A stretch of DNA of 35,385 nt, taken from contig WRHO01000022.1 of the NCBI GenBank assembly GCA_009783205.1, forward strand, positions 1-35,385. The letters are read 5' to 3'. The position numbers were made by a program, and so were the translations under genes. The notes below the pieces were generated by a model. That model searched no databases. It worked only from the letters and a program-made list of their open reading frames with translations, and was not told where the DNA came from. Below, piece by piece: positions 2,010-31,728 of this stretch (its first letter is position 1; each line of letters begins with the position of its first letter). The DNA is from Oscillospiraceae bacterium (GTDB lineage: Bacteria; Bacillota; Clostridia; Oscillospirales; Ruminococcaceae).

Positions 2010-2350
2010 TGAACAGCTTCAACTGGATAAATTACATTGATTTATTTTATAAAACGACTACCTTGTTGAACGGTTCATTTCAACCGGGTTTATATACATT
2101 CGGCTCCTTCAACCTCAGCTCCTTCAACTTCTACAACCTCGGCTCCTACAACCTCGGCTCCTACAACTTCGGTTCCTTCAACTTCTACAACCTCGGCTCT
2201 TTTGACTACAGCTTGCAAGGCTTCGGCTTAAACAACTGTCAACTGTCAACTGTCAATTGTCAATTGTCCGTCAATTGTCAATTGGCAACTGTCCGTCAAC
2301 TGCCATCAGAGCCGTTGAATATATTTGGATATGGGATAGAACTAATATGA
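2009..2350 (+). CDS. Doubtful small ORF built mostly from tandem repeats
   Basis: A 113-codon ORF whose ATG overlaps the preceding stop codon (TAATG) and is preceded by AAAGGA, so translation by coupling is possible. Its middle is a 15-bp tandem repeat (2102-2209) giving units such as GSFNL, SSFNF, GSYNL and GSYNF. Its last third is read through CAACTGTC/CAATTGTC microrepeats (2233-2302). I recognise no domain. The period of five residues recalls pentapeptide repeats but lacks the A(D/N)Lxx pattern. It may be noncoding repeat DNA that happens to be open. It overlaps the start of the next gene by 4 bp. Confidence 0.3.
   Translation: MNSFNWINYIDLFYKTTTLLNGSFQPGLYTFGSFNLSSFNFYNLGSYNLGSYNFGSFNFYNLGSFDYSLQGFGLNNCQLSTVNCQLSVNCQLATVRQLPSEPLNIFGYGIELI
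2102..2209. repeat. 15-bp degenerate tandem repeat
   Basis: Units of the type GGCTCCTACAACCTC or GGTTCCTTCAACTTC, with two shortened 9-bp units (TACAACCTC). About seven units are present. The period is a multiple of three, so the frame stays open. Confidence 0.85.
2233..2302. repeat. CAACTGTC/CAATTGTC microrepeat array
   Basis: Seven to eight copies of 7-8-bp units (CAACTGT, CAATTGT, with CCGT interruptions). On the minus strand the units read TTGACA(A/G). The same family occurs at 5474-5513, 11257-11285, 19230-19300 and 31010-31045, and as a relic at 21184-21214. Confidence 0.9.
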
Positions 2351-3231
2351 AACTAAATGTTATTTATTCGCTTTCTACGCTTCCGTTTTTTAAGAAAAAC
2401 CCAAACGGAAGCTTCGAAATGGACAAATTTGAGCTTTACACCGCCGCGCTTTCTTCTCTCACGCGCAAAAGTAAACAAGAGATAAGCCCAAAAGACGGGC
2501 TTTGCTCGTCCGACGGGCGAATCTTGACGTCAGGTAACACAACGATAATGCACTGTGATAAACGCGGTGCGGAGTATCTTCGCGCAAAAGGCGTGTCTGA
2601 TTTATGGGACGAGGTACTCGAGGATATTCCCGATGATTTGGAGGGGATTAACCCGTTGATGTTTTGGGCGGCGGGGAAGCTTTTTGCGTTAAAAAACACA
2701 AAAGCTCCCGTTTTAATGCTCGATACCGACTTCATAGCTTGGCAGCTTCCCGAACTCGGAAGCTCGATTGTCGCGGCACACAGAGAGCCGTTATTTGAAA
2801 AAACATACCCCGATGTTTCGCGCTTTCAAATGAATGACAGCTATACCTTCAATGACAAACTCGATTATACCGTTCAACCGTTGAACACGGCGTTTTTATA
2901 TATGAACGATGATGAGTTTAAAGACTATTATGTTGAACAATCGCTCGACTTTATGAAATCGGCATTACCCTGTGATGACTATCTCACCTACATGGTTTAC
3001 GCGGAGCAACGGCTATTGGCTCTTTTAGCCGCATATAAAAACATCGACGTTAAAACTATTCTGTGCTATGAACAGCTTAGACTGCCGCAAAAACGCTACA
3101 CCCATACATGGGGTGCAAAACAGGTTATGAGGGACAATCCGAGCGAGGAAGAGCGGTTTTGCGAAAAATGCAGAAACAGAATCCGCAAGGATTTCCCCAA
3201 ATATGAGTATATAATTGATATTATAGGATAG
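2347..3231 (+). CDS. DUF6734-like protein, possible GT-A glycosyltransferase fold, with an in-frame repeat insert
   Basis: About 294 residues from ATG 2347 (KLNVIYSLSTLPF); an in-frame ATG at 2257 would read through microrepeats and is unlikely. The layout resembles the DUF6734 family: a short first beta strand, a set of early helices, and an aspartate motif in a hydrophobic strand (VLMLDTDFIAWQLP) that looks like the DxD of GT-A nucleotide-sugar transferases. Later come FLYMND, CDDYLTYMVYAEQRLL and a C-terminal helix rich in basic residues. The family role is unknown. Residues 43-64 (bases 2472-2537) are an inserted 66-bp dispersed repeat also found in polA. No clear ribosome site is seen; GGGATAG lies about 10 bases upstream. 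It is 9 bp from polA and likely co-transcribed with it. Confidence 0.55.
   Translation: MKLNVIYSLSTLPFFKKNPNGSFEMDKFELYTAALSSLTRKSKQEISPKDGLCSSDGRILTSGNTTIMHCDKRGAEYLRAKGVSDLWDEVLEDIPDDLEGINPLMFWAAGKLFALKNTKAPVLMLDTDFIAWQLPELGSSIVAAHREPLFEKTYPDVSRFQMNDSYTFNDKLDYTVQPLNTAFLYMNDDEFKDYYVEQSLDFMKSALPCDDYLTYMVYAEQRLLALLAAYKNIDVKTILCYEQLRLPQKRYTHTWGAKQVMRDNPSEEERFCEKCRNRIRKDFPKYEYIIDIIG
2472..2537. repeat. 66-bp dispersed coding repeat, copy A
   Basis: Matches 3249-3314 at 62 of 66 positions and is read in the same frame, giving KQEISPKDGLCSS then DGRILTSG. It contains an RNA-type hairpin GACGGGC-TTT-GCTCGTC with one G-T wobble. It lies inside the DUF6734-like gene and keeps the frame open. Confidence 0.85.
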
Positions 3232-3240
3232 GGGGTCATA

Positions 3241-5469
3241 ATGAAAGCTAAACAAGAGATAACCCCAAATGACGGGCTTTGCTCGTCCGAAGGGCGAATC
3301 TTGACGTCGGGTAAGCTACTTTTAATAGACGGCAATTCCTTAATCAACCGTTCGTTTTACGCAATACGCCTTCTTTCAAACAAAAAAGGCGTCTATACGA
3401 ACGCAATTACCGGCTTTTTTTCGGCGTTCCTTAAGTTACAAAATGAGCTTAAGCCAACCCACGCGGCAATCGCATTTGACCTTCGCGCACCGACCTTCCG
3501 ACACAAAATGTACGACGGCTATAAAAAACGCCGTAAAGGTATGCCCGAGGAATTGGCGGCGCAAATGCCTTATATAAAACAAATTCTCGATTATATGGGA
3601 ATAGCGCGGGTAGAATGTGAAGGCTATGAAGCAGATGATATAATCGGAACGCTTGCGCGGTCTGCCGCATCGGACGAATCGGAAAACCTTGTTTACATCG
3701 CAACGGGCGACCGCGACTCGTTTCAATTAATAGATGAACAAATATCGGTTTGTCTCGCGTCAAATAAAGAAGAAATCATTTATACGCCTAAAAAAATCGA
3801 AGAGCTGTACGGTATAGCCCCTAAACAATTTATTGAGATTAAAGCGTTAATGGGCGATTCGTCGGACGATATTCCCGGGGTTGCGGGAATAGGGGAGAAG
3901 ACGGCGTTTTCTCTTATACAAAAATTTGAAACCGTCGATTATATATATGAACATTTAGCGGGACTCGATGTGACCACTCTCGTCAGAACGAAGCTTTCAC
4001 GCGGAAAGGAGTTGTGTTTCCTTAGCCGCGAACTCGGAAGAATAAAAACGGACGTCCCGATTGATTTATCGCTCAATTCGTATATACCGCAAAAAGGAAA
4101 CCCCGCGCAATTGGCGACGCTTTTAACAGAACTCGAATTAGCGACGCTAATGAAACGCTTGAAGCTTCAACCGGTTGAGCTGCCCGCTTTGAGCGACGTA
4201 TCACAAAATGAACCTCAAAAAAACGAAGCCGACAACGACCAAACCAACGACCACCCCTATGAACACCTTCAAGTCGACAACGATTTAGAGCGCGTTTTGC
4301 GCGATATGGAAAATACAGGGATTAAGGTTGACGCAGAGGGGATTCGGAAATTCGGCGAAGAGCTTGAACCGCAAATTAACGCGCTTGAGTCGCGAATACA
4401 CGAAATGGCGGGGGTACAATTCAACATACTTTCGCCTAAACAATTGAGCGAAATCCTTTTTGAAGGCTTGGGCTTAAGCGGTACAAAAAAGACAAAAACC
4501 GGGTATTCGACCGGTGCGGAGGTGTTGGAGGCTTTGGCGGACGAACACCCGATAATCCCCCTTATTACCGAATACAGAGAGCTTACAAAGCTTAATTCAA
4601 CTTATGTACAGGGGCTTTTAAAATGCGTAAAAGACAACGGGCGAATCCACACCACCTTTAAAAACGAAACGCGAACGGGGCGGCTTTCGTCGGTTGAGCC
4701 TAATATTCAAAATATTCCGGTGCGTACCGAACGCGGAAGAATTTTCAGGCGTTTTTTCATAGCGGAACGCGGTTGCCTTTTAGTAGACGCCGACTATTCC
4801 CAAATAGAACTGCGGGTTTTAGCGCACGTCTCGTCTGACTCAATTATGCTCGACGCTTTTAGAAATAATGCCGATATTCATACAATAACCGCGGCACAGG
4901 TGTTTGGCGTAGCCGAAAAAAACGTAACGCGGGAAATGCGTAGCGCGGCAAAGGCGGTCAATTTCGGAATAGTGTACGGAATGGGCGCGTTTTCGCTGTC
5001 GAAGGAAATCGGCGTTTCCGTCGCACAAGCAAAGGATTATATCGAGCGTTATCTCAAAAAGTACAACGGCGTCCGCGAATATCTCGAGCGCGTCACAGAA
5101 GAAGCAAAAAACTGCGGCTATGTTAAGACTTTACTCGGACGAACCCGCAACATTCCCGAGCTTAGGTCATCTAACCACAATATACGCGCCTCCGGCGAAC
5201 GAATTGCAAAAAATACACCGATTCAAGGAACGGCGGCGGATATTATAAAAATAGCAATGGTTCGGGTATACGACCGCTTAATAAAAGAACAACCGAGCGC
5301 GAAGCTTATATTACAGGTACACGATGAGCTGATTGTCGAATCGCCGGAACAAATTGCCGACAAAACGGCAAAAATCTTATCCGAGGAAATGATTTCCGCG
5401 GGGAGAGAACTCGAGATGAATCTAACGGTAGATGTAAAAACGGGGAGTTCGTGGTATGAAACACACTGA
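3241..5469 (+). CDS. polA: DNA polymerase I, compact form without the 3'-5' exonuclease domain
   Basis: A 742-residue family A polymerase that fills gaps and removes RNA primers in replication and repair. Residues 25 to about 305 form the 5'-nuclease (KLLLIDGNSL, the acidic EGYEADDIIG and TGDRDSFQL motifs, and the GVAGIGEKTA helix-hairpin-helix). The polymerase domain has motif A DADYSQIELR, motif B around RSAAKAVNFGIVYG and motif C LQVHDELIVE. Between them is only a short acidic linker (about residues 308-345), so the exonuclease domain, even the inactive form common in Bacillota and Taq, is nearly absent. The first 24 residues come from the 66-bp repeat; ATG 3241 with AGGGGG upstream is the only well-supported start, so the extension is probably translated. 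It overlaps the acetyltransferase gene by 14 bp. Confidence 0.95.
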   Translation: MKAKQEITPNDGLCSSEGRILTSGKLLLIDGNSLINRSFYAIRLLSNKKGVYTNAITGFFSAFLKLQNELKPTHAAIAFDLRAPTFRHKMYDGYKKRRKGMPEELAAQMPYIKQILDYMGIARVECEGYEADDIIGTLARSAASDESENLVYIATGDRDSFQLIDEQISVCLASNKEEIIYTPKKIEELYGIAPKQFIEIKALMGDSSDDIPGVAGIGEKTAFSLIQKFETVDYIYEHLAGLDVTTLVRTKLSRGKELCFLSRELGRIKTDVPIDLSLNSYIPQKGNPAQLATLLTELELATLMKRLKLQPVELPALSDVSQNEPQKNEADNDQTNDHPYEHLQVDNDLERVLRDMENTGIKVDAEGIRKFGEELEPQINALESRIHEMAGVQFNILSPKQLSEILFEGLGLSGTKKTKTGYSTGAEVLEALADEHPIIPLITEYRELTKLNSTYVQGLLKCVKDNGRIHTTFKNETRTGRLSSVEPNIQNIPVRTERGRIFRRFFIAERGCLLVDADYSQIELRVLAHVSSDSIMLDAFRNNADIHTITAAQVFGVAEKNVTREMRSAAKAVNFGIVYGMGAFSLSKEIGVSVAQAKDYIERYLKKYNGVREYLERVTEEAKNCGYVKTLLGRTRNIPELRSSNHNIRASGERIAKNTPIQGTAADIIKIAMVRVYDRLIKEQPSAKLILQVHDELIVESPEQIADKTAKILSEEMISAGRELEMNLTVDVKTGSSWYETH
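3249..3314. repeat. 66-bp dispersed coding repeat, copy B (5' end of polA)
   Basis: About 94% identical to 2472-2537, 777 bp away (259 codons), in the same reading frame. It gives KQEITPNDGLCSS then EGRILTSG directly before the conserved polA beginning KLLLIDGNSL. Confidence 0.85.
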
Positions 5470-5887
5470 CGGGCAGTTGCAGTTGACAATTGACAAGGGA
5501 CAGTTGACAGTTGTTGAGCGCGTTTTACAAATGGAGCGGGTTTGTTTTGATGAGCCGTGGTTATCGGTAAACCCAAACTCCGTTTTTGTTATTGAGGACT
5601 ACGGTTACGCCGTCGGAACCCAAAACGAACTCCACAGAATCGCCGTCCTTCCGGAATTTAGAGGTAAAGGCTTGTCATATTCGCTCATGCGTTCGTTTTT
5701 AGACAAATGTAACGGCGAGGTGTTCTTAGAGGTTGCTTCTAAAAACGCCCACGCCGTTAAGCTTTATAAAAAATGCGGTTTTAAAGAAATTGCACGCCGT
5801 AAAGATTACTACAAAGATGATGATTGTATTGTGATGTCTATGAATACAGCTTCTAATTCTTCTAACTCTTCTAATTCTTCAACTTGA
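5456..5887 (+). CDS. rimI: GNAT acetyltransferase, RimI-like
   Basis: A 143-residue GNAT-fold protein. RimI acetylates the N-terminal alanine of ribosomal protein S18. Motif A is visible ([20 protein letters not shown], with the acetyl-CoA loop RGKGLS), followed by [28 protein letters not shown], which is typical of RimI. The core is short, about 115 residues. The first 19 or so residues ([13 protein letters not shown]) are read from a TTGACA microrepeat, and the last ten ([10 protein letters not shown]) from a 9-bp tandem repeat, so both protein ends come from repeats. The native start may have been replaced; no better start is seen. It overlaps polA by 14 bp at its start and the convergent chemoreceptor gene by 17 bp at its end. 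Substrate could differ from S18. Confidence 0.72.
5474..5513. repeat. TTGACA-type microrepeat array in the rimI start
   Basis: CAGTTGCAGTTGACAATTGA followed by CAAGGGACAGTTGACAGTTG. It is the same unit family as 11257-11285 in opposite orientation, and it is read as the N-terminus of the RimI-like protein. Confidence 0.85.
5852..5878. repeat. 9-bp tandem repeat TCTAAYTCT at the rimI and chemoreceptor gene ends
   Basis: Three units (TCTAATTCT, TCTAACTCT, TCTAATTCT) give the NSS repeat of the acetyltransferase. They run into the 13-bp palindrome CTTCAACTTGAAG (5877-5889), which holds the rimI stop and the last codons of the convergent chemoreceptor gene. Confidence 0.85.
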
Positions 5888-7699: not shown

Positions 7700-7732
7700 T
7701 AGCTATCGTCAAAATATCTCTTGTTTTGCTCC

Positions 7733-8962
7733 TCAATCGGTAGCGTTGGTCAAAGCGAATTTAATTTCTATTTCGTTACTTTCGCCGAAATTATTATACC
7801 GAATCACTTTAACGGTGACAACATCGCCGATACTCAAGTCTTTTATAATATTTTGTATATCCGCCGCAGTAGCGACGTCTTTCCCGTTAATCGCAATAAT
7901 TATATCGTTTCGCGCAAGTCCGCTTTCCGCCGCGGGTGTACCCGGTCTGACCGTTTCGACTAAAAACCCGCTGAAATCGTCATAATACGGAATGACCTCT
8001 CTGCCCGTTATTCCGAGCATTGCGCGGGTAGTAACCGCGCCGAATTGTGTGAGGTCGGTTATAATGGGCATAGCCTCGTCAATTGATATAGCGAAGCCCA
8101 AATTGTCAATAGCGGTATCGTACACGAGCTTTATATTAACGATTCCGATAACCTCACCTTGCATATTAAATAAGGGACAACCGGAGTTCCCCGGGTTAAG
8201 CGCGGCGTCGGTTTGGATAGAGGGGAGCATATAAGGGTTTCCGTCGTCGAGCTCTCTTTGAAGCCCGGAAATAATCCCCTGCGTCATTGTTTTGATAAGT
8301 CCTACGGGGTTTCCGATTGCGACGACGGTTTGACCTATTCTGAGGTCGGAGCTTTTGCCGATTTCTGCATATTTAAAAGCCTCGTCTCGTTCTATTTTCA
8401 AAACGGCTAAATCGGACGGCGTGTCGGAGCCGTAAAGCGTTGCCTCGTATTCGTGCGGCTTTGCGGACGGGTCGTTATAATCGTCAATAACTACAAATAT
8501 CTTTTCCGAACCGTCAACAACGTGAGCGCAGGTTATAATAAAACCGTCCTCGGATATGATGACCCCGCTCCCCACAATTCCCGATTCATCTCCCGCTCCC
8601 GTTTTTATTCCGACAACCGTATCGTTTAAATCCGCATACAGCTCGGCGGCGTTATAATCGCCCGAACGCAATTCGCGTTCGTGAACGGGGGGTTTTTCAA
8701 AAGCCGCCTCGTTCGAATTATCCAACTCGGGCTGTAAAAGAACATCGGGGATATTATTTCTGTCGACGTTATCCTTTGCGGCGGCGCGTTTCCCGCCGTT
8801 TGACTGTACTTGTGAGCTTGAGCTTATATCGACTATTTTTACAACCTCTGTAAGAAGCCAGGAGCCGCCGAAGCCTACCGCCCCCCCAAATATTATCGTC
8901 GCCAAACACGAAATAAAGACCGTTTGGAATCTTCCTTTTTTCTTAATGTATTCCGGTTTCAT
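7733..8962 (-). CDS. htrA: S1C serine protease of the HtrA/DegP family
   Basis: A 409-residue membrane-anchored quality-control protease acting outside the cell membrane. It has a short cytoplasmic N-terminus, one membrane segment (about residues 14-38), a low-complexity linker, a trypsin-like domain with catalytic H147 (ITCAHVVDG), D184 (SDLAVLKIE) and S260 (NPGNSGCPLF), and one PDZ domain (about 315-400). The usual GNSGGP around the serine reads GNSGCP here. The start ATG is preceded by AAGGAGGAG. A SigA promoter (9027-9055) and a terminator (7664-7699) suggest a single-gene unit, although no terminator separates it from the abi gene upstream. Confidence 0.94.
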   Translation of the reverse strand: MKPEYIKKKGRFQTVFISCLATIIFGGAVGFGGSWLLTEVVKIVDISSSSQVQSNGGKRAAAKDNVDRNNIPDVLLQPELDNSNEAAFEKPPVHERELRSGDYNAAELYADLNDTVVGIKTGAGDESGIVGSGVIISEDGFIITCAHVVDGSEKIFVVIDDYNDPSAKPHEYEATLYGSDTPSDLAVLKIERDEAFKYAEIGKSSDLRIGQTVVAIGNPVGLIKTMTQGIISGLQRELDDGNPYMLPSIQTDAALNPGNSGCPLFNMQGEVIGIVNIKLVYDTAIDNLGFAISIDEAMPIITDLTQFGAVTTRAMLGITGREVIPYYDDFSGFLVETVRPGTPAAESGLARNDIIIAINGKDVATAADIQNIIKDLSIGDVVTVKVIRYNNFGESNEIEIKFALTNATD

Positions 8963-11244: not shown

Positions 11245-11273
11245 ATTATAACACAACAACTGTCAACTGTCAA
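11245..11273 (-). promoter_or_regulatory. Consensus SigA promoter of tyrS, with the -35 box inside a microrepeat
   Basis: On the minus strand: TTGACA (11268-11273), 17-bp spacer, TATAAT (11245-11250). The -35 hexamer is the second of three TTGACA units in the array that also encodes the end of alr. Confidence 0.85.
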
Positions 11274-11285
11274 TTGTCAACTGTC
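11257..11285. repeat. TTGACA-type microrepeat array between alr and tyrS
   Basis: On the plus strand the units CAACTGT, CAACTGT, CAATTGT, CAACTGT follow in tandem. The minus strand reads TTGACA three times. It contains the alr stop codon (11263-11265) and the tyrS -35 box. Confidence 0.9.
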
Positions 11286-12354
11286 TCTCTACCCTGTGCG
11301 CTACGGCACAGGTTACCTCATAGGGAATTGTCCCCAATGAATCGGCAATGTCTTCGACGCTAATCCCGCTGTCCTCGTCGCCGTAAATTGTTACCTCGTC
11401 GCCGACCTTTACGTTATCAATATCGGTAATATCCGCCATAATATACTCCATACAGACGTTTCCGCATATAGGCGCGAGCTTTCCGTTAATAATAACCTTC
11501 CCGCGGTTAGAATGTCGTCGCGAATACCCGTCGGCATATCCCGCGGCGACAACCGCTATGCGGCGGTAGGAATCGGCGGTATACCTTCGCCCATAGCTTA
11601 TGGGGGTTCCCGCGGGTACGTCTCTTATTTGAACAATGTCGGTTTTAAGCGTCATAACCGGTTTTAATTTAACGGGGCTTTCAAAGGCGGTATTAGGGCG
11701 ATAGCCGTAAAGCGAAACCCCCAACCTAATCATATCCCCGCTAAGCTCCCCGTGGTACAGCGCGCCCGCCGAGTTATGCGCGTGATACTTCATGTTATAT
11801 TTTTCGGCAAATTTTTGTATTTGCGCCTGTTGCTTGGCGGTAAATTCCCGATTTTCAATTTCGATTGAATCGGCGTCGGAAAAATGGGTGTAAAAAGCCT
11901 CGGGCTTTAATTGCGAAAACGCCATAATTGTATCAAGCTCGTCGAACGTGTTCACGCCGAACCGCGTCATACCCGTATCAATTTTTATGTGACAGCGGAG
12001 GCGGTTTCCACTGTTTTGCTTTAAGTGTTTTTGTATAACGGAAGCGTTGCCGACATTGGATATTGTCTGAATAAAGTCGTTTCTGATAACTCTTTCTATA
12101 TACGACGAGGGTGTTCGCGAAAGTATGAGTATATCCGCGCCCTTTGCAATTTCCCGTATCGTCTCCGCTTCATAAATATTCGAAACGGCAAAGCTTTTTA
12201 TACCGTGTTTATACAAACAATCGACGACGGCTTCTATCCCGTGACCGTATGCGTTTGCTTTAACAACCGCCATAATCTTTTTATCGGGACAAAGCCGCTT
12301 TATCTGTTCCACATTATGAATAAGCGCGTTTTTGTTTATTAATGCACGTATCAT
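11263..12354 (-). CDS. alr: Alanine racemase
   Basis: A 363-residue fold-type III PLP enzyme making D-alanine for peptidoglycan. The PLP lysine is K32 in VVKANAYGHG; the catalytic tyrosine is Y254 in PISYGRRYTA. Other conserved pieces are KIDTGMTRFG, SGDMIRLGVSLYG and CGNVCMEYIMADIT. Length is normal. The last residues (QLTIDS) are read from the TTGACA microrepeat, which therefore supplies the stop codon. It is divergent from the LCP-like gene across a 250-bp region. A TATAAT-like -10 box (12403-12408) lies upstream on this strand without a good -35. Confidence 0.96.
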   Translation of the reverse strand: MIRALINKNALIHNVEQIKRLCPDKKIMAVVKANAYGHGIEAVVDCLYKHGIKSFAVSNIYEAETIREIAKGADILILSRTPSSYIERVIRNDFIQTISNVGNASVIQKHLKQNSGNRLRCHIKIDTGMTRFGVNTFDELDTIMAFSQLKPEAFYTHFSDADSIEIENREFTAKQQAQIQKFAEKYNMKYHAHNSAGALYHGELSGDMIRLGVSLYGYRPNTAFESPVKLKPVMTLKTDIVQIRDVPAGTPISYGRRYTADSYRRIAVVAAGYADGYSRRHSNRGKVIINGKLAPICGNVCMEYIMADITDIDNVKVGDEVTIYGDEDSGISVEDIADSLGTIPYEVTCAVAHRVERQLTIDS

Positions 12355-12426: not shown

Positions 12427-12585
12427 GAAGCTGTATTCATAGACATCACCGTTCATCTTTCGGCGAATTTTCCGCCACACTGCGTTAAAAATTTCTTAAA
12501 TATCAACGGATATTCGCAAAATTTTTGCCTTGTTTGACGAAAAATTCGCTCGACATTTAAACGATTCGTCTATGAACACAACTTC
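12427..12585. mobile_element. Complete MITE-like element, 159 bp
   Basis: It is bounded by 18-bp terminal inverted repeats GAAGCTGTATTCATAGAC (12427-12444) and GTCTATGAACACAACTTC (12568-12585), which match at 16 of 18 positions, and flanked by TTA on both sides (12424-12426 and 12586-12588). Inside are GCGAATTTT (12463-12471) against AAAATTCGC (12541-12549) and AATATC-AACG-GATATT at the centre, so most of the element can fold into one long hairpin. It contains no ORF. A second copy starts the window (1-122) and a 31-bp miniature lies at 13493-13523. Confidence 0.8.
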
Positions 12586-12605
12586 TTATTTTTTGAGAGG
12601 ATATT

Positions 12606-19208: not shown

Positions 19209-19229
19209 GCTACACTCCCCTTTTTTGGT

Positions 19230-19300
19230 AATTGTCAACTGTATCGTCAATTGTCAACTGTATCGTCTATTGTCAACTGTATCGTCAATTGTCTACTGTA
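19230..19300. repeat. 19-bp tandem repeat between flhB and flhA (TTGACA family)
   Basis: The unit AATTGTCAACTGTATCGTC occurs at 19230-19248, 19249-19267 and, with one change, 19268-19286, plus a partial unit to 19300. The flhB stop codon (19285-19287) lies inside it. The minus strand carries several TTGACA or TTGACG hexamers but no -10 box at a suitable distance was seen. Confidence 0.92.
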
Positions 19301-23281: not shown

Positions 23282-24499
23282 TTATTCTTTACCTAATGAA
23301 TCCATAAATTTCGATTTGATTATTTCGGTTATTCTGACCGCAAAGTTATCGTCTATTACCACAACATCGCCCCGCGCTATCAGATTTCCGTTTACTACAA
23401 CGTCTACCGGTGCGCCCGCCTGACGTTCGAGTTCGATTATTGTTCCGGGGGTAAACCCTAATATTTCCTTCACCCTTCTTCTCGCCGTCCCGATTTCTAC
23501 AGAAATCTGCAACGGAACGCCCATGAGTAATTGTAAATTATCCCTTTGGTCTTCCGACAAATTAACGTCAAAGTTTTCAAACTGGTGAAGCTGTGCCGTT
23601 TGAATATTAATAGGCATTTGCATAGGATATCCTCCGTACTGTGGTTGATAACCGTATGGCGGCATTGCCATTCCCTGTGGCGGATACCCCGGCGGCATTC
23701 CTTGCGGCATACCCTGTGGCGGATACCCTTGCGGCATACCCTGCGGCGGATACCCTTGCGGCATACCCTGCGGCGGATACCCCGGCGGCATTCCTTGCGG
23801 CATACCCTGTGGCGGAACACCCATTCCCGCGGCGGGCTGTTGTGGTGTCGCGGCGGCAACCGGCTCGGGTTCGGGTTCCGGCTCGGGGTCGTCCTTCGGG
23901 CTGCTGACCTCTACCATTCTGTCCGAAAGCTCCTGTGCCAACGGAATACTCATGACCGAAACAAACTCCGAATTAATAACGTCCTCAATCGTAAGATTAA
24001 AATTAACCGCAACGACCGATTCCTCGGGTTCAAAATCTTGAAGCTCGGAAAGGTTAATCTGATTCATAATATGTGGAGCGGGGGTCGATATATCTATGTT
24101 CATATCAAGGAACTTCGACAATGCCGTTGAACACGACCCCATCATTTGATTCATCACCTCGGAAACCGCGCTTATGTTTAATTCGTCAAACTCAAAATCG
24201 GGTAAAAGCTCTAAAGGCTGACCCATCAGTTGATTCAAAATCATCTGAACGTCATCTTGTTTGAGTAACATCAAATTTGAACCGCTTATTCCCTTAGTGT
24301 AAACAATTTTCACACAAATAGCCGGCTCAAGCTCTTCCCTCTTCATATCCGACGCTTTAAGGACGGTTACCGTCGGCGTAGTAATCCACACCTTCGCATT
24401 GAGCAATTCCGATGCGGCGGTTGCCGCACTGCCCATGCCGATATTCATTATTTCGCCTATCGCGTCTTTTTGGACATCCGTTATTTCATTAATCGCCAT
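23282..24499 (-). CDS. fliY: Flagellar motor switch phosphatase FliY
   Basis: A 405-residue switch protein combining a CheC-type phosphatase domain and a C-terminal FliN (SpoA) domain. Both phosphatase sites are intact: D12-xxx-E16-xx-N19 with P42, and S110-xxx-E114-xx-N117 with P140. An acidic stretch and a long Pro-Gly-Met-Gln repeat (about residues 205-300) link it to the SpoA domain (NFDVNLSEDQRDNLQLLMGVPLQISVEIG, then LERQAGAPVDVVVNGNLIARGDVVVIDDNFAVRI). The N-terminal LSQDEIDALL-type helix that binds CheY-P in Bacillus FliY is missing. The ribosome site is AAAGGA. Confidence 0.95.
   Translation of the reverse strand: MAINEITDVQKDAIGEIMNIGMGSAATAASELLNAKVWITTPTVTVLKASDMKREELEPAICVKIVYTKGISGSNLMLLKQDDVQMILNQLMGQPLELLPDFEFDELNISAVSEVMNQMMGSCSTALSKFLDMNIDISTPAPHIMNQINLSELQDFEPEESVVAVNFNLTIEDVINSEFVSVMSIPLAQELSDRMVEVSSPKDDPEPEPEPEPVAAATPQQPAAGMGVPPQGMPQGMPPGYPPQGMPQGYPPQGMPQGYPPQGMPQGMPPGYPPQGMAMPPYGYQPQYGGYPMQMPINIQTAQLHQFENFDVNLSEDQRDNLQLLMGVPLQISVEIGTARRRVKEILGFTPGTIIELERQAGAPVDVVVNGNLIARGDVVVIDDNFAVRITEIIKSKFMDSLGKE
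23673..23816. repeat. Pro-Gly-rich tandem repeat inside fliY
   Basis: DNA units of about 24-30 bp built from GGCGGATACCC and TTGCGGCATACCC blocks encode alternating GYPPQGMPQ and GMPPGYPPQ units. Near-identical neighbouring units suggest copy number could vary. Confidence 0.85.
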
Positions 24500-31009: not shown

Positions 31010-31045
31010 AACTGTCAACTGTTACTTGTCAATTGTCAACTGTCT
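31010..31045. repeat. TTGACA-type microrepeat array downstream of flgD
   Basis: AACTGTCAACTGTTACTTGT followed by CAATTGTCAACTGTC on the plus strand. The minus strand carries TTGACA units. It ends 2 bp before the flgD stop and lies in the flgD to flagellar operon protein gap. Confidence 0.88.
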
Positions 31046-31047
31046 CG

Positions 31048-31728
31048 TCAGTCGCCGATTGTTCCGCCGGGCTGATACGCCTCGTCTTCTTCCTTGCCTT
31101 CGGGCTGTTCAACCTTTGCTACGCTCGACAGCGGATATGCCATATTGTCGATTACGATTGAGATTTGACCGTCCTTGATTTCTATTCTCTCGACGATTCC
31201 TTCCTCAACCACCGATTTGCCGGAGGTGCTTACCATACCGATTGTTACATATTTTCCGATAAGGCTCGTTGCGAACGCGCCGTTTGTTCCGCCGGACAAC
31301 CCGTCAAAGCTGTAATCCAATACTTCCATTATGTTTTTCAAAGGGTATTCCTGTCCGTTGACGGTGATGAGAAATTCGCCGCCCGAGAGGTTAACATTAG
31401 TGACAACGCCCTCTTGAACGTCGAGTCCGTCGCCGCCCGTACTGCGCGCAACGATAACCGTTTTCCCCGCTAACGATGATGCGTAGTTGGCGTTATTGTA
31501 GTACAACGCTTCCTGTTGAACCTGAAGCGAGGTAAACGACGCCATTTGTGAAACAAATTCGGTGTTCGACATAGGGTCCATCGGGTCTTGGTTAGACATT
31601 TCCGCTATTAAAAGCTGATAGAAGGTTTCTATCGACATATCGGAATTGCGTTTATCGGTAAATAAATCGGCATATTTAATTCTGTTTTCGAGTATATTTC
31701 CTATACTCCCCGTATTACCTGTACCCAT
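31048..31728 (-). CDS. flgD: Flagellar hook capping protein FlgD
   Basis: A 226-residue scaffold that caps the growing hook. The N-terminal FlgD signature is FYQLLIAEMSNQDPMDPMSNTEFVSQMASFTSLQVQQ. The C-terminal part has two similar beta-rich stretches (GKTVIVARS, then GKYVTIGMV), as in Gram-positive FlgD. The ribosome site AAAGGA lies upstream. It follows fliK by 26 bp. Confidence 0.94.
   Translation of the reverse strand: MGTGNTGSIGNILENRIKYADLFTDKRNSDMSIETFYQLLIAEMSNQDPMDPMSNTEFVSQMASFTSLQVQQEALYYNNANYASSLAGKTVIVARSTGGDGLDVQEGVVTNVNLSGGEFLITVNGQEYPLKNIMEVLDYSFDGLSGGTNGAFATSLIGKYVTIGMVSTSGKSVVEEGIVERIEIKDGQISIVIDNMAYPLSSVAKVEQPEGKEEDEAYQPGGTIGD

Follow-up and report, generated by a model that had tools for sequence, protein, structure and literature searches.

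The DNA analyzed here, hereafter the window, is a stretch of 35,385 nucleotides forming contig C22 of the genome of an Oscillospiraceae bacterium (1.91 Mb in 49 contigs, 96.6% complete; hereafter the source genome, G000). It contains two copies of a short repeat, one inserted in frame in the DNA polymerase I gene polA and the other in a neighboring gene for a DUF6734-like protein. The results indicate with high confidence that this repeat belongs to a palindromic element, about 62 bp long, that is dispersed and has been active recently, and that behaves like the Rickettsia palindromic elements (RPE) and the CGTC-tagged repetitive extragenic palindromes (REP). Gene-invading palindromic repeats that remain in frame are best known from Rickettsia, and a 2002 paper by Ogata et al. 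is said, going by its title, to describe them as a unique but recurrent feature of that genus. An earlier note on this DNA had proposed an RPE-like reading from the two window copies; as a likeness in behavior, it is supported by the many additional copies and by orthologues devoid of the insert.

Copies in the window and in other genomes

The pair originally described at 2472-2537 and 3249-3314 was borne out: the two stretches are identical at 62 of 66 bases, lie 777 bp apart and are read in the same frame. In a repeat search of the window, the match ran on to 71 nt, with 92% identity. The 66-bp unit proposed earlier does correspond to a repeat, but a 62-nt core with some 7 less conserved bases behind it describes the shared unit better; the two cores (Table 1) are identical at 57 of 62 positions. 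Likewise, the proposed hairpin, GACGGGC-TTT-GCTCGTC, is present, but it includes one G.T pair and is nested inside a longer stem. Comparison of the window with Rfam gave nothing at gathering scores.

When the source genome was searched with 91 bases around copy 1, 31 matches were obtained on many contigs and on both strands; 30 of them were taken as loci and read. Over 58 bases, copy 1 shows 100% identity to an element on a different contig (G000:C40:5335-5392), a closer match than copy 2, and this identity between C22 and C40 argues for recent copying. A local duplication of one segment between neighboring genes would fit two copies only 777 bp apart, but it is ruled out by the 31 matches over many contigs and because copy 1 is closer to the C40 copy than to copy 2.

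Forty distinct copies from three genomes were used to build a covariance model, which detected 45 places in the source genome under strict filters. Across the genus, matches were obtained in 7 of 71 genomes: in addition to the source genome, G066 (69), G067 (59), G003 (36), G006 (11), G064 (5) and G020 (1). The other 64 genomes gave none under these filters. The six rich carriers referred to below are G000, G003, G006, G064, G066 and G067, G020 being the seventh carrier with its one match. Further copies, which the earlier note had called for, were thus found both in the source genome and in six congeners.

A 23-base hairpin pattern was found in 37 stretches among 84,980 named species. Thirty-five of these fell in three metagenome-assembled genomes (MAGs) named Oscillospiraceae bacterium, all three of which are among the seven carriers in the genus: Emb289P3bin33 (22), Th196P3bin137 (8) and Nt197P3bin88 (5). 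The ends of the element were recognized by eye in 26 of the 35 stretches, and were lacking in all 8 of Th196P3bin137 and in one of Emb289P3bin33. The other two stretches, in Dehalococcoidales and Planctomycetota records, displayed the hairpin only, with no ends, and were counted as chance. In the accessible part of PMC7024585, samples from the termites Embiratermes neotenicus, Termes hospes and Neocapritermes taracua share the prefixes of these MAGs. Like these relatives from termite guts, the source genome is probably of termite origin. Among 394 genomes of the order, a strict pattern for the ends matched just one, the source genome, and there just 3 places; this pattern is therefore insensitive. 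The presence of the segment across many unrelated genera, which the earlier note had named as evidence against its reading, was not observed within the reach of this pattern.

Carriage by phages or plasmids was not supported by these searches. Viral contigs gave no match for the exact 23-base hairpin pattern, nor did phage and plasmid records for a 75-nt consensus. The whole L005 locus matched 14 phage records; in the 5 of them that were listed, the matching pieces all lay at 505-812, beyond the element, and are probably tRNA genes.

Host genes, empty sites and orientation

Sixteen of the 30 copies, lying in 15 genes, are open and in frame, and the products match Pfam. The hosts include PolA, MutS, PcrA/UvrD, TsaE, a PrmC-type methyltransferase, signal peptidase I, a thiamine pyrophosphate enzyme of the acetolactate synthase type, an RNase R-type RNB protein, ComEC, MBOAT, PIN7, TerB, YfhO (two copies) and a leucine-rich repeat (LRR) protein, as well as the DUF6734-like protein, which is below the Pfam cut-off. 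Three of the 16 copies are partial: the one in PrmC lacks its 3' end, the second one in YfhO lacks the center, and RNase R has the left end only. These 16 copies were recognized through their open frames; insertions out of frame would be more easily missed. Additional copies found by pattern, and those of other genomes, were assessed as open frames only, without Pfam.

The encoded peptide is mostly AKQEISPKDGLCSSEGRILTSG. Five copies are near the N terminus (PolA, MutS, signal peptidase, TerB and LRR). In PcrA, the insert separates the helicase domain from a tudor domain at 550-596. In the acetolactate synthase, it lies between two stretches that separately match a solved structure (query 13-197 and 240-610). 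Finally, the TsaE insert, located between residues 104 and 126, immediately precedes the IEW strand, and the stretch derived from the element includes EISPKDGLCSSAGR. The structure of the DUF6734-like protein modeled from the single sequence had a mean pLDDT of 34, too low to be used.

PolA starts as MKAKQEITPNDGLCSSEGRILTSG-KLLLIDGN when read from the ATG at 3241. The net gain is about 22-23 residues, instead of the 24-residue extension claimed earlier. This ATG, described earlier as the only polA start with a ribosome site, is indeed preceded by AGGGGG, but its status as the only one is uncertain, because a TTG at 3301, preceded by GAAGGG, is also possible. A later start could leave N-terminal elements untranslated, and this TTG is a start of that kind in PolA.

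The empty-site comparison, also suggested in the earlier note, covers four of the 15 host genes, and no insert was found in the relatives read. In TsaE, 31 residues separate the anchors, versus 8 in 6 of 6 matched relatives (TsaE was not matched in a seventh genome). For the DUF6734-like protein, 37 residues stand against 18 in nine and 19 in one of the 10 loci read (11 fetched), a net gain of 19. PrmC displays 28 residues between anchors versus 11-16 in 6 of 7 loci, the seventh not being read. For PolA, the start was readable in 5 of 7 relatives, and the insert was present in none. Net insert lengths thus vary (12-17, 19 and 23 residues) and always amount to whole codons. Therefore, it is selection on the host gene that holds the frame, and not the length of a fixed 66-bp unit.

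The genes hosting copies are usually essential, which would fit an element removed from the mRNA or bypassed by the ribosome, as with a tiny intron or a bypass element. This explanation is scarcely credible: every one of the 16 gene copies keeps an open reading frame, although net lengths differ, and excision would not demand this.

Fourteen of the 16 gene copies are in sense orientation, 12 of them in the AKQE frame, and the two antisense copies are both in membrane proteins (ComEC and YfhO). In 26 full copies, 36 of 78 phases are open in sense versus 60 of 78 in antisense. Sense thus has fewer open phases, and therefore the bias must have some cause besides open frames. The one-sided P value is 0.002 against one half and 6e-5 against the open-phase share, both values being rough because the copies are related. 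The 14 copies outside Pfam-matched genes correspond to 11 places once tandem partners are merged (based on a listing of open reading frames (ORFs), with no homology search). At 6 of these places, an ORF running in the same direction ends at the element or just ahead of it, so that its stop codon is in contact with or close to the element; one of the six ORFs is only 78 aa long.

The sense bias and the position behind stop codons might mean that the elements are kept for a function, either as an mRNA hairpin tuning stability or translation, or as a useful peptide tag. The G.U pairs of the hairpin, which fall on the sense strand, point the same way. We nevertheless consider a retained function improbable: the host genes are unrelated, the centers of the element are variable, the sites are empty in the relatives read, and 64 of 71 genomes of the genus have no match.

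Ends, centers and fold

The majority sequence of the 62-nt core in the oriented, aligned copies is AAGCTAAACAAGAGATAAGCCCAAAGGACGGGCTTTGCTCGTCCGAnGGGCGAATCTTGACG; in the source genome it is followed by a less constant tail, TCGGGTA(AAGC). The element has the form of a hairpin, AAGC-N-AAACAAGAG...CTTGACG (or CTTGACA). Most copies end in CTTGACG or CTTGACA, which read CGTC or TGTC on the reverse strand, and a few read TTGCCG or CTCGACG. The ends are partly inverted repeats (CAAGAGC / GCTTG).

The consensus folds as a long hairpin, with -29.3 kcal/mol and z -4.2 as RNA and z -2.2 as DNA. As a single RNA sequence, copy 1 stands out from its shuffles (z -2.9), and copy 2 hardly does (z -1.4; as DNA, z -0.2). 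The stem comprises 17 pairs in two helices closed by a 3-nt loop. Over 40 distinct rows, 95.7% of the cells are paired, versus 35-53% when the partners are slid, and on five measures 0 or 1 of 500 shuffles reach the pairing of the element. These rows were chosen as full-length and are mutually related; moreover, arm-to-arm correction would mimic the signal of selection. In CGTC-tagged REPs, A-T pairs are characteristic of the first and second stem positions. In the element, they occupy these positions in the CAAG/CTTG register with an AG bulge, drawn by eye; in the register that was scored, the outermost pair is G.U in 40 of 40 rows.

Congeners with weaker model matches revealed the same ends enclosing other palindromes. 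Applied to all loci, an end pattern gave 110 flanked matches, of which 100 measured 45-70 nt and 92 were distinct. By a crude k-mer rule, the centers of these 92 elements fell into 24 rough groups, some of them evidently related. In 23 of 24 groups, the fold of the representative surpassed the average of its own shuffles; in the remaining group it equaled that average. The constancy of most end letters is imposed by the pattern itself; the first two letters, which are free or nearly so in the pattern, are A in 85-86%. Left ends were also counted with the pattern RAGYNAAACAAGAG, giving 40 in the source genome, 23 in G003, 12 in G006, 44 in G064 and 107 in G067; with the pattern backwards, the source genome gave 3 and the four others 0 each. 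Forms with no hairpin occur, namely L194 and the minimal element of the window (Table 1). L207 is a perfect palindrome and L027 a near-perfect one, with one G.T. Head-to-tail pairs and arrays are also present.

It is quite possible, and we tentatively propose, that these elements form a modular Firmicutes class of protein-coding palindromic elements. Its fixed ends, AAGC-N-AAACAAGAG...CTTGACG/A, would accept many palindromic centers. It would multiply in a few species of one genus with no Y1 transposase (nor, in all but one of the six rich carriers, any detected reverse transcriptase), through an end-recognizing factor or through enzyme-free template switching.

In G064, a second palindromic family of 33 matches (e.g. 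L087:3002-3065, L075 and L072) was also observed, with other ends and a similar hairpin core, GGGCGGGCTTTGCTCGCCC. Judged by eye, it is open inside ORFs resembling a helicase and a phosphoribosyltransferase. Palindromic centers may be exchanged between families in this genome.

Mobility and comparison with known repeats

The search for a mobilizer covered two enzyme families. Y1 transposases (PF01797) were detected in 0 of 6 rich carriers versus 20 of 71 congeners, with one weak match in G020, which has one element match. Reverse transcriptases (PF00078) were detected in 1 of 6 rich carriers (G064) and also in 1 of 3 near genomes with no element matches (G080). An RNA route via a resident reverse transcriptase is thus not supported. 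A palindrome with an unpaired tag and no general target duplication would also suit a classical REP, or a miniature inverted-repeat transposable element (MITE), moved by a resident Y1 transposase of the REP-associated tyrosine transposase (RAYT) type. Such a transposase is rejected for the six rich carriers by the PF01797 count, which makes this explanation very unlikely.

Several results weigh against a mobile palindromic element. The sense bias of 14 of 16 gene copies is left unexplained by open frames alone. Pairs changed on both sides number 4, within the slid-control range of 2-6; compensatory change alone is therefore weak evidence. We detected no transposition intermediate, no polymorphic site within a species and no mobilizer; the assemblies are fragmented, and therefore an autonomous partner could be missing. 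Furthermore, no general target-site duplication was found in two sets of non-tandem copies. In the source genome (20 copies, including at least one misparsed row), the observed value was equaled or exceeded by 57 of 500 shuffles for end matching and by 31 of 500 for the longest shared word. In G064 (13 copies), the corresponding figures were 158 and 168 of 500. Single copies looked convincing (L014, 8 bp; L225, 15 bp), and the sets do not clearly beat shuffles. The best single candidate is L225 of G064, on the minus strand with the element start at 1223, where the 15-bp direct repeat is TATGATTGATTTAAG.

Spread with no dedicated enzyme, by template switching during replication, deserves separate weighing. 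The hairpin would stall the fork, microhomologies (AAGC, GGTAA) would capture a short single strand bearing the element, and the center would stay palindromic through arm-to-arm correction. Such a process would account for the variable 3' ends and the partial copies in genes (L025, L029 and L030), for the palindromes L207 and L027, and for the lack of a general target duplication, and it agrees with the enzyme counts given above. At the TsaE site, moreover, 2 of the 5 relatives shown read GGTAAAGG or GGAAAAGG, near the usual end of the element, GGTAAAGC; the other 3, however, have no microhomology. Also against it, the ends are kept while the centers vary across species, suggesting end recognition, and matches in only 7 of 71 congeners suggest a lineage-specific factor. 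We thus regard template switching as rather unlikely. As a first guess, a trans-acting factor reading the ends ranks first and enzyme-free template switching second.

For a mobile element with end recognition, the mover would be a factor supplied in trans that acts on the single-stranded hairpin together with the flanking AAGC and GACG/GACA ends. Copies would reach new sites by insertion or copying, and those breaking genes would be lost. Copies would persist at protein termini, in loops and linkers, and immediately downstream of stop codons, presumably because the encoded peptide is hydrophilic and tolerated.

Like RPE, the element is a palindrome present in numerous copies that are read in frame within unrelated protein genes, and host orthologues are devoid of the insert (four genes compared). 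Moreover, it has CGTC or TGTC at one reverse-strand end, and Di Nocera et al. 2013 (PMC3733652, accessible part) class RPE-4 and RPE-6 of R. conorii as CGTC repeats; this support was absent from the earlier note. It differs from RPE in its carriers, which are Oscillospiraceae MAGs, from another phylum than Rickettsia, and in its size, about 62 bp versus about 150 bp for RPE according to the accessible part of PMC10969869. It also has shared ends with variable centers, and the likeness is one of behavior. The same part of PMC10969869 summarizes RPE and remarks that the same could have happened in other prokaryotes.

In its accessible part, PMC3733652 sorts REPs by a GTAG or CGTC tag, with TGTC variants, and describes CGTC repeats as having no dedicated transposase; intragenic hosts include UvrD and DNA polymerase I. 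There, CGTC repeats occur in five phyla, none of them Firmicutes, and the main text contains neither "Firmicutes" nor "Clostridi". The present element resembles CGTC-tagged REPs in its CGTC tag with TGTC variant, its intragenic copies, including UvrD and DNA polymerase I hosts, and its G.T pairs. The lack of a dedicated transposase in these REPs can be set beside the rich carriers (PF01797 0/6 and PF00078 1/6, for the two families searched). In contrast, the stem of the element is longer, with internal loops and a 3-nt loop, versus a stem of 8-9 bp and a loop of 4-5 nt in CGTC-REPs; their CCA tail is not in the element alignment; and the element forms head-to-tail arrays, whereas CGTC-REPs are mostly head-to-head dimers and rarely clustered. 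In stem, loop, tail and dimer form, the element fails several defining features of this class. Like GTAG REPs and REPINs associated with RAYT, it is a small non-autonomous palindrome tagged at one end, but its ends are without GTAG and Y1 transposases are lacking in the rich carriers. Like MITEs, it is short and dispersed with partly inverted-repeat ends, but there is no general target-site duplication, and no parent insertion sequence was found with the two enzyme families searched. A literature search, with poor coverage of subscription journals, did not bring up any description of an element of this kind from Clostridia.

Table 1. Element copies, hairpins and associated genes in the window.
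Feature	Position	Strand	Remarks
Element copy 1, 62-nt core	2468..2529	+	RAGC-N-AAAC...CTTGACG form, inside DUF6734-like gene; less conserved tail TCAGGTAA to 2537
Element copy 2, 62-nt core	3245..3306	+	Directly after polA start codon; tail TCGGGTAA to 3314
Apical hairpin, copy 1 (GACGGGC-TTT-GCTCGTC)	2494..2510	+	Sequence; pairing over 40 copies
Apical hairpin, copy 2	3271..3287	+	Sequence; pairing over 40 copies
DUF6734-like gene with copy 1 in frame	2347..3231	+	Pfam PF20508, E 2.8e-5, 24.1 bits, below cut-off 27; relatives read without segment
polA (DNA polymerase I) with copy 2 in frame at N terminus	3241..5469	+	Pfam DNA_pol_A, 5_3_exonuc_N, 5_3_exonuc; relatives without insert
TTG inside element, in frame with polA, possible alternative start	3301..3303	+	GAAGGG 6 nt upstream
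Minimal element GAGCAAAACAAGAG-ATATTTTGACG, both ends, no hairpin	7707..7731	-	One base after stop of 7733-8962 (-) gene

Other repeats were observed in the window. Positions 1-125 and 12464-12588 form a 98% identical repeat; the second copy is surrounded by inverted, MITE-like ends, AGAAGCTGTATTCATAGAC and GTCTATGAACACAACTTCTT, and a similar end lies beside element copy L010. Arrays of short repeats of the CAACTGTCAATTGTC type occur in both orientations at 2234-2293, 5480-5515, 11251-11299, 19212-19300 and 31010-31063. A 113-aa ORF at 2009-2350 consists mostly of repeated pentapeptides of the SFN/SYN type followed by a short-repeat array, and may not be a normal gene. Finally, tandem GC-rich repeats with units of 12-15 bases were noted at 23669-23816.

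An active-looking family in a genus of 71 genomes, six of them rich in copies and 64 with no match, allows mobility of the CGTC type to be tested directly, through comparison of carriers and their near relatives. The addition of some twenty residues to enzymes of DNA repair, tRNA modification and amino-acid metabolism is a natural experiment in protein tolerance. Such inserted segments should accordingly not be read as conserved domains.

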